64,000 nt of DNA, taken from the NCBI RefSeq assembly GCF_006539525.1, contig NZ_BJNE01000005.1, positions 124,001-188,000 on the forward strand, given 5' to 3'. The translations under genes were made by a program, and so were the position numbers. Source of the stretch: Glutamicibacter nicotianae. GTDB taxonomy: Bacteria > Actinomycetota > Actinomycetes > Actinomycetales > Micrococcaceae. The notes beneath the pieces were generated by a model, which was not told where the DNA came from, ran no database searches, and saw only the letters and a program-made list of their open reading frames with translations. Below are positions 10,957 through 12,167 of this stretch, in pieces (the first letter of the stretch is position 1; each line of letters opens with the position of its first letter).

Positions 10957-10984
10957 TTGTTATTGAGTCTCATTCTCATATAAG
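10957..10984 (+). promoter_or_regulatory. Zur-box-like operator inside a leaderless promoter
   Basis: TTGTTA (10957-10962) and TATAAG (10979-10984) are spaced 16 bases and would start transcription at about 10991-10994, on the GTG start of the COG0523 gene, so the mRNA is probably leaderless. The spacer is filled by TGAGTCTCATTCTCA (10964-10978), which agrees at 11 of 15 positions with the actinobacterial Zur box form TGAAAATCATTTTCA as I recall it. Zn-bound Zur here would block polymerase. Consensus from established knowledge; the site itself is read directly. Confidence 0.7.
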
Positions 10985-10993
10985 CTGTGATGC

Positions 10994-12055
10994 GTGAACC
11001 TCATTGTCCTCTCCGCACTTGACACCTCCAGCCGCGACACCGGCTTGGAGCACCTGCGACGCCACCACCCCGATGCCATCTTCCTGCGCTATGACTTCGT
11101 CGACGGCAATCGGCTGGTGCGCCATGTCTTTGGATCGGCGACCGCCGAACGCGCTGAAGCAGTGCTTGAGCATCCCTGCATTGGCTGTGCCACGAAATTC
11201 GAGATCCTGCCGACCATCAGGCGCCTGGCACCCCAGGATTCCGAAACCACCATGGTCTTGGGGCTGCCTTCCACCTGGCATAGCGCCTCGGTGCTCCAGA
11301 TGCTCGAAACACAACTCGAACCACTGGATCTGCAGATCAGCAGCATCGCGCTGGCCTTGGATCCAGCCGAATTGGAAAACCAGATGTGGGATCGGCATAC
11401 CCTCTGGGAATCGGGATTCAACGCCATGGAGCACGATGCGCGGACTGCCGGAGAGTTCTTCTTCACCGAACTGATGCAGGCAGATACGCTCATTCCGGTT
11501 GAAGGCCTGGAAGCCCAGCTGCTTGAGGATGCTGCAGGTCCGCGGCGTGCTGGCGGCATCCGCTACGAAGCCGGTCTCGGCCTGGCACGGCAGATGGCGC
11601 CGCATGCGCAAATCTGCGTGCACGAAGGGGAACTCGGATCCTTCCACCCCGCCGCGGCCCGCCAGCGCACCAGCGCCGGGCATCTGCCGCGAACACCCCT
11701 TGATGCCAGCAGTGCGCCGATCCGCCTGCACGCGGAACGTCCGCTCCACCCCGAGCGCTTCCGCCAAGCCCTGCCGTCCTTGGCTGAGTCCTGCACCTGC
11801 ATCCGCGGCGTCCTCTGGGTAGCCAGCGCGCTGAGCGAGCGCGTTGCCATCGGCGGAGCCGGTCCGCGCATCTGGATGGAGAACACCGGGGCCTGGCATT
11901 CGCATATCGCCGTTTCAGAATTGCTGCTCTACGGATCCGAGCATGAAGCTTCGCAGATTGAAACGGTTTTCGAGCAGTGCCAGGTCACCGAGGAAGAGCT
12001 CAAGGGGCTGTTCAACTCCGCAAATCACGAGGGAGGTGAATGGCATGAAAGTTAG
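10994..12055 (+). CDS. COG0523/CobW-family protein lacking the P-loop
   Basis: 353 residues. The first strand (NLIVLSAL) aligns with the CobW/COG0523 start, but where family GTPases have GxxGxGKT this protein reads DTSSRDT, so the nucleotide-binding loop is gone. The family metal motif CxCC is replaced by CIGC at 62-65. The C-terminal CobW_C domain (about 243-325) is clear: [16 protein letters not shown] and ENTGAWH. Co-transcribed with the zinc-free L36 gene (11-base overlap) behind a Zur-like box, so it belongs to the zinc-starvation response. Mycobacterial Zur-controlled relatives (Rv0106 group) have been linked to ribosome remodelling and hibernation; a similar ribosome role, rather than zinc-chaperone GTPase work, is my inference. 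Confidence 0.8.
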
Positions 12056-12167
12056 GAATTCCATCCGTGCACTGAAGAAGGCACCGGGATCGCTAGTGGT
12101 CAGACGACGCGGCCGCGTCTTCGTGATCAACAAGAAGAATCCGCGCATGAAAGCGCGGCAGGGCTGA
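12045..12167 (+). CDS. rpmJ: Alternative ribosomal protein L36, zinc-free form
   Basis: 40 residues starting [16 protein letters not shown] and ending NPRMKARQG. This is the YkgO-type C-minus L36: the Cys-x2-Cys...Cys...His zinc ribbon of normal L36 is absent (no Cys at all). C-minus paralogues replace zinc-binding ribosomal proteins during zinc shortage and free stored zinc; this is established for the group. GGGAGG lies upstream of the ATG inside the end of the COG0523 gene, and the two genes overlap by 11 bases, so they are translated together under the Zur-like promoter. A normal zinc-type L36 should exist elsewhere in the genome. Confidence 0.93.

Follow-up and report, generated by a model that had tools for sequence, protein, structure and literature searches.

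Background

Mrf (mycobacterial protein Y recruitment factor; Rv0106/MSMEG_6069) has been described as a mycobacterial factor, and the zinc-hibernation model itself is reportedly disputed (by Tobiasson, in 2019). Where a 2026 review (PMC13418864) turns to this factor, it states that mycobacterial Mrf promotes loading of Mpy (the homologue of protein Y) on C-minus ribosomes, and that Mrf, a CXXC-bearing protein, is degraded via ClpS-ClpC1-ClpP1P2 when zinc is present. The work of Haas et al. 2009 (PMC2770081) records that Rv0106 is without both GTPase motifs and carries CXSC, so that P-loop loss is already known from Rv0106 and constitutes no novelty of the gene described here. On the side of regulation, PMC2823685 gives the Streptomyces Zur type of operator as a 7-1-7 palindrome (TGAAAATGATTTTCA) and places RpmJ among the ribosomal paralogues of predicted actinobacterial Zur regulons, while a Neisseria operon that includes a second L36 gene (rpmE2-rpmJ2) is reported as zinc-repressed in another source (PMC13343924).

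Here we analyse a locus of Glutamicibacter nicotianae, located in a stretch of 64,000 nucleotides (the window), in which a gene for an Mrf-like, P-loop-less protein of COG0523 fold overlaps a gene for zinc-free ribosomal protein L36. What is new is the spread and synteny of the P-loop-less clade in Actinobacteria, as well as its reduced Micrococcaceae form, paired with L36 alone; in the openly licensed literature we found no report of a Micrococcaceae Mrf homologue.

Genomes and sequence sets

The clade set comprised 43 P-loop-less rows, namely the window protein, 27 rows from a family search, one from a contig scan and 14 from a phylum sample. In the family search the best 30 of 43 matched genomes supplied loci; the 13 weaker matches stayed outside the protein set (some of them may be ordinary COG0523 proteins), with the region of one (G114) being scanned for neighbours. 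The phylum sample covered 296 genomes, of which the best 30 of 46 matched ones supplied loci (14 of these without a P-loop, 16 with one; one locus per genome). The comparison set of 17 P-loop rows was drawn from one family search together with the own-genome paralogue at G000:C2:64579, and represents no census of COG0523. Three loci were left out of the rows: L005 (identical to the L004 locus), L003 (a short PF02492 match, judged to be another protein) and L025 (G049; frame incomplete at the N-terminus), the last of which has CLSC and an adjoining L36B gene.

Sequence and predicted structure of the protein

The gene (10994..12055, + strand) is an open reading frame of 353 aa with a GTG start. 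The only Pfam domain found in its product is CobW_C (residues 244-329, 11723..11980, +), which scored 33.8 bits against a cut-off of 22, no Pfam match to PF02492 being present; the initial annotation was right in describing the C-terminal domain as well kept. Among the 43 P-loop-less rows CobW_C was recognised in all and PF02492 in 22 (E up to 0.01), and the CobW_C residues R255, R271, G272 and G290 are invariant across the clade.

At the place where a P-loop is expected the protein carries DTSSRDT (residues 10-16, 11021..11041, +), as had been claimed from the sequence at the outset: residues 8-16 (ALDTSSRDT) align to the Gly-rich GFLGAGKT loop of P-loop COG0523 proteins, and neither GxxxxGK[ST] nor [NT]KxD occurs anywhere in the sequence of any of the 43 P-loop-less rows. 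The losses go beyond those mentioned in the initial annotation, since GLPS stands at the E-S-T-G column and VE at the NK of NKxD in the alignment with P-loop COG0523 proteins. E-S-T-G strings are found in five of the 43 rows, all of them around residue 300, inside CobW_C and distant from the Walker-B position. The second replacement proposed at the outset, that of the CxCC metal motif by CIGC, is correct for the window protein (C62 and C65, 11177..11188, +; a likely zinc site, aligned to CICC/CVCC of P-loop COG0523 proteins) but fails as a description of the clade, in which six rows, all from family f21 (L043, L047, L049, L050, L056 and L058), retain the third cysteine. As these f21 rows are P-loop-less and yet keep CxCC, the loss of the P-loop and that of the third cysteine were apparently separate events. 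Both CxxC cysteines are kept in 43/43 rows, a His at residue 60 in 35/43, and an Arg at the column of the P-loop Lys (R14 in the window protein) likewise in 35/43. The 17 P-loop rows are themselves variable (CxCC in 16, [NT]KxD in 12 and E[ST][TS]G in 11), which leaves the P-loop as the sole clean separator of the two sets. Since the absence of these motifs is common to 43 rows, the loss of the P-loop defines a group and is no accident of one gene.

The AlphaFold2 model of the window protein, built on the 43-row alignment (mean pLDDT 91.8, pTM 0.89), has strand 1 at residues 2-8 and helix 1 at residues 11-24, so that two residues are left at the place of the P-loop and most of DTSSRDT forms the beginning of helix 1. 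In a control model of a P-loop relative (strand 2-9), helix 1 begins at residue 15, i.e. the P-loop Lys, three residues later than in the window protein (aligned numbering); this control is only moderate (13 rows, pLDDT 73), which makes the comparison of helix starts merely indicative. The structure prediction proposed along with the initial annotation places helix 1 at the P-loop position, the comparison with the control being indicative only. The closest solved structure is E. coli YjiA (Foldseek E 3e-12 to 4e-11, TM 0.37-0.41; Z 11.7 in VIA, with an rmsd of 9.1 over 260 residues), a loose match in view of its high rmsd and low TM, but one that covers both domains (residues 1-331); the next structural matches, Shulin (Z 9.7) and then SRP GTPases (Z 9.4), cover residues 1-228 or less. 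A direct sequence search of the window protein against the PDB gave no match up to E 1. The predicted fold is of the COG0523 kind, with the phosphate loop unformed in the model, and the loss of motifs, together with a high-confidence model whose helix 1 starts at the P-loop position, supports a role other than that of a GTPase. We found no motif in the sequence from which a GTP site could be rebuilt by other residues.

The best NCBIfam model for the window protein is NF047431 (63.1 bits, E 2e-17, residues 3-310), an equivalog named ‘ribosome hibernation factor-recruiting GTPase MRF’ whose curated threshold lies at 375 bits; as this threshold is missed, we call the protein Mrf-like and not Mrf. 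The same model matches all 43 P-loop-less rows, and in the maximum-likelihood tree of 60 rows one branch (support 100/99) splits the 43 from the 17 P-loop rows. The split recurred with support of 100/99 after removal of the four motif regions and of two long-branch rows (58 rows), and in this motif-free tree 20 rows from Micrococcaceae group together (100/100). Above the MRF cut-off stand six of the 296 genomes of the phylum sample, all of family f22, which branch inside the P-loop-less clade and stay there in the motif-free tree too. The P-loop and NKxD are absent from 43/43 rows, these six included, and yet NF047431 is named a ‘GTPase’; the database name is misleading for this family. The window protein shares 18-23% identity with the f22 rows, which, together with its 63 of 375 bits, implies that its function may have drifted. 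With the 20 other Micrococcaceae rows its identity ranges from 85% down to 30%, all with open frames and invariant cysteines; this conservation led us to reject a pseudogene or a sequencing accident.

Genomic context and putative regulation

Immediately downstream lies rpmJ2 (12045..12167, +; ATG at 12045, stop at 12165-12167), encoding a type-B (zinc-free) L36 of 40 aa without Cys (NF002021, 72 bits against a cut-off of 70; PF00444, 63 bits), preceded at 5 nt from its start by a Shine-Dalgarno-like GGAGGTGA (12032..12039, +) inside the 3' end of the Mrf-like gene. The Mrf-like gene ends with its stop at 12053-12055; the 11-nt overlap is in a different frame, which makes rpmJ2 an operon neighbour, and the claim that the two are fused was not borne out. 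A true fusion with L36 is ruled out by the separate frames and by the variable spacing, which in relatives ranges from an overlap of the 11-nt type to a gap of ~57 nt.

Queries with the ribosomal proteins of E. coli detected a ribosomal-protein gene within ~1.5 kb flanks at 41/43 P-loop-less loci versus 5/17 P-loop loci. The initial annotation had suggested to set the phylogeny of P-loop-less members against their ribosomal linkage, and the two agree: the clade supported by 100/99 is the one in which 41/43 loci have this linkage. A wider set of 41 regions (40 plus the window; distance 3 kb) revealed zinc-free L36B in 18 of 19 Micrococcaceae regions (G046 being the exception). Among ten other regions of the order Micrococcales nine had a ribosomal match (S14, L31B and L33 in 8 each, L28 in 7 and L36B in 6); the remaining one (L095), where none was detected inside 3 kb, is truncated by the end of its contig and shows a match to L33 at ~4 kb. 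Family f22 has the gene flanked by L31B on one side and by L28-L33-S14-S18 on the other in five of six regions by direct match, and the sixth (L100) has the ribosomal genes too, its Mrf-like gene having been placed by phylum-search coordinates after being missed by the window query. This f22 layout equals that of M. smegmatis mrf as given in PMC7174638. Family f21 has the L28, L33, S14, S18 and L31B set in 5/5 regions, in another order, and the single f24 region has L28, L33, S14, L31B and L36B. No L36B match was present within 3 kb in the f22 and f21 regions, and across the 41 regions no neighbouring ribosomal match contained CxxC within the matched segment.

In Micrococcaceae, L33, S14 and L31 gave one match each in all 11 genomes of the family searched (two or three matches each in three other genomes of the order Micrococcales); L28, L33 and S14 were without CxxC in six Micrococcaceae genomes (G000, G010, G042, G046, G009 and G023), and L31 in three (G000, G009 and G010), in contrast to the housekeeping L33 of G077 and G112 and the housekeeping L31 of G077, G112 and G116, all with CxxC. 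The housekeeping L36 of the window genome carries CDKC and one further Cys. Among L31, L33, L36 and S14, for which genes were counted, only L36 has a zinc/zinc-free pair in the window genome; L28 was seen there in a zinc-free form. Two L36 matches were found in 21/22 Micrococcaceae genomes having the Mrf-like gene versus 6/50 without it (Fisher 7e-12, a guide only, as the genomes are related and L36B adjoins the Mrf-like gene), and within the genus the Mrf-like gene and a second L36 are both present in 13 of 18 genomes and both absent in 5. The G046 genome (L024/L085) has the Mrf-like gene without the upstream box described below, without nearby L36B and with a single L36 match, which may reflect decay, a misplaced start codon or an L36-independent role. 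Conversely, G018, G037, G051, G053, G056 and G064 have two L36 matches and no detected Mrf-like match; here a second L36 may exist without the partner, or the partner may be too diverged for the query.

Upstream of the gene, 30 nt before its start, lies a putative Zur-like operator (TGAGTCTCATTCTCA, 10964..10978; consensus score 12 of 14), a 7-1-7 palindrome with a decayed left half, followed directly by a -10-like hexamer (TATAAG, 10979..10984, +); the transcript is probably leaderless or nearly so. The palindrome (TGAGAATNATTCTCA), which resembles the actinobacterial Zur type, recurs 29-31 nt before the start in 20/21 Micrococcaceae loci (12-14 of 14 positions), while 4035 other 80-mers of the same loci scored at most 10, in a test that is partly circular as the consensus was drawn from the loci scored. 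Scanning the whole genome with a relaxed form of the pattern (up to one mismatch) returned 10 rows, with three places without mismatch (the window operator included) and five rows at one mismatch; as a control, the pattern was reversed and yielded 0 and 2 matches. The box points to an operon under probable zinc-starvation control.

The other two places without mismatch lie beside transporter genes. At one (G000:C2:215125-215139) the palindrome is found where a gene for an ABC-transporter ATPase begins; the cluster also encodes a binding protein of family 5 (peptide/nickel type), a divergent PBP_like_2 gene is close by, and the whole is a possible zinc or metallophore importer. The other (G000:C6:133727-133741) is followed by genes for a Peripla_BP_2 protein, an MFS transporter and a FecCD permease, possibly a zinc-metallophore system. 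The window genome encodes two Fur-family regulators (one of them at G000:C14:46107), neither of which passes a named NCBIfam cut-off. One HPF gene was found in each of the 14 genomes searched (in the window genome with an HPF/YfiA match over residues 1-103, 77 bits against a cut-off of 41, and a C-terminal extension); HPF is the partner required by the Mrf model, but since it is equally present in genomes without the Mrf-like gene, its presence is non-discriminating.

Discussion

Taken together, these observations incline us, at slightly better than even confidence, towards a zinc-starvation bicistron that would pair an Mrf-like pseudo-GTPase with a zinc-free L36, its role being carried over from that of Mrf. 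This reading draws on the kinship (NF047431 and the clade), the f22 layout, the adjacency of L36B, the L36 copy numbers and the conserved box, as well as on the HPF gene in 14/14 genomes and the two Fur-family regulators. Against it stand the low identity and MRF score, the decayed operator half, G046, the six genomes with two L36 matches and no Mrf-like match, the unnamed status of the Fur-family regulators, the equal presence of HPF in genomes without the gene and the dispute over the zinc-hibernation model. The comparison with Mrf made at the outset holds in part: kinship (43/43 rows matched by NF047431), context (zinc-free ribosomal neighbours) and probable regulation (a Zur-like box) agree with it, while the curated cut-off is missed. 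By analogy, ribosome hibernation through HPF would be the likeliest role. In the presence of zinc, Zur would sit on the operator beside the -10-like element and keep the operon silent, as the box suggests; when zinc falls, both genes would be made, and the zinc-free L36 would presumably replace the zinc form. The Mrf-like protein with its CxxC would, in analogy with Mrf, be unstable in its zinc-loaded state and stable in its zinc-free one, and the stable form would help HPF to load on, and preserve, the remodelled ribosomes, a recruitment step modelled on mycobacterial Mrf.

A different function for the same cysteines, which we regard as unlikely though worth keeping in sight, is that of a GTP-independent zinc metallochaperone or buffer of the ZigA/YeiR sort, whose CxxC would take zinc from the replaced zinc form of L36 and pass it to essential enzymes, the link to the ribosome being one of shared regulation only. 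The invariance of CxxC would fit such a function, as would the match of the ZigA model to 42/43 rows and the closest fold being that of YjiA, which was solved with zinc bound (4ixm, by its title). However, known COG0523 chaperones have the P-loop that is absent here, the ZigA model gives the window protein 23 of 600 bits, resting on CobW_C only (residues 245-306), and the ribosomal neighbours that mark 41/43 P-loop-less loci accompany only 5/17 P-loop ones. The pairing with L36B alone in 18/19 Micrococcaceae regions, and the joint presence (13/13) or absence (5/5) of the gene and a second L36 within the genus, could instead indicate a factor dedicated to L36 that helps to load the zinc-free form into the 50S subunit, or to expel the zinc form, with no part for HPF; we consider this improbable, given that the f22 and f21 loci adjoin other zinc-free proteins while giving no match to L36B over 3 kb, which makes an L36-specific role unlikely as the one shared by the clade.

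The name GTPase given to the family by NCBIfam, and the Arg that occupies the P-loop Lys column in 35/43 rows (R14 here), would be accommodated if a nucleotide or another phosphate were still bound via a remodelled site. With no Gly-rich loop, E-S-T-G off its column, NKxD absent and helix 1 starting three residues earlier than in the P-loop control, we rate the chances of such a site as slim. Lastly, the loss of motifs and the G046 relative without partner or box might be taken as signs of a decaying remnant without function, for which we see scarcely any likelihood given that the frame is open, that identity to the 20 other rows of Micrococcaceae spans 85% to 30%, and that the cysteines are invariant and the operator conserved.

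Within the bicistron reading, a bolder extension, to which we give low credence, is that in Micrococcaceae the swap of L36 alone marks the ribosomes of zinc starvation, and that the Mrf-like pseudo-GTPase reads or enforces this mark, leading to hibernation by HPF; L28, L33, S14 and L31 are zinc-free in every Micrococcaceae genome whose sequences were read. If L36 were indeed the single mark, these bacteria would hold a minimal natural form of zinc-coupled ribosome hibernation, and recognition by Mrf would take place at or near L36. The P-loop-less clade occurs in several actinobacterial families, across which it remains syntenic with zinc-free ribosomal proteins although the set of partners changes, in Micrococcaceae down to L36 alone. 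Should the role be shared, the locus would offer a non-mycobacterial, reduced system for studying how zinc shortage is coupled to the storage of ribosomes.

In comparison with the COG0523 GTPases (YjiA, YeiR, ZigA and CobW), the window protein shares the overall fold (YjiA, Z 11.7) and CobW_C, and differs by being without the P-loop, E-S-T-G at its column, NKxD and CxCC. With the Zur-controlled rpmE2-rpmJ2 operons (ykgM-ykgO in E. coli; Neisseria) the locus has in common a zinc-free L36 and genes that touch or overlap, although the partner there is a zinc-free L31 and here the Mrf-like protein, the sole L31 found in the window genome being already zinc-free. Of Mrf itself the protein recalls the P-loop-less, COG0523-like architecture, the CxxC, the zinc-free ribosomal neighbours and the Zur-type box upstream, and its clade includes rows that pass the MRF model; unlike Mrf, which is found with L28-L33-S14-S18-L31, the window gene is paired with L36B only, and its product, at 18-23% identity to the f22 rows, remains under the curated cut-off.
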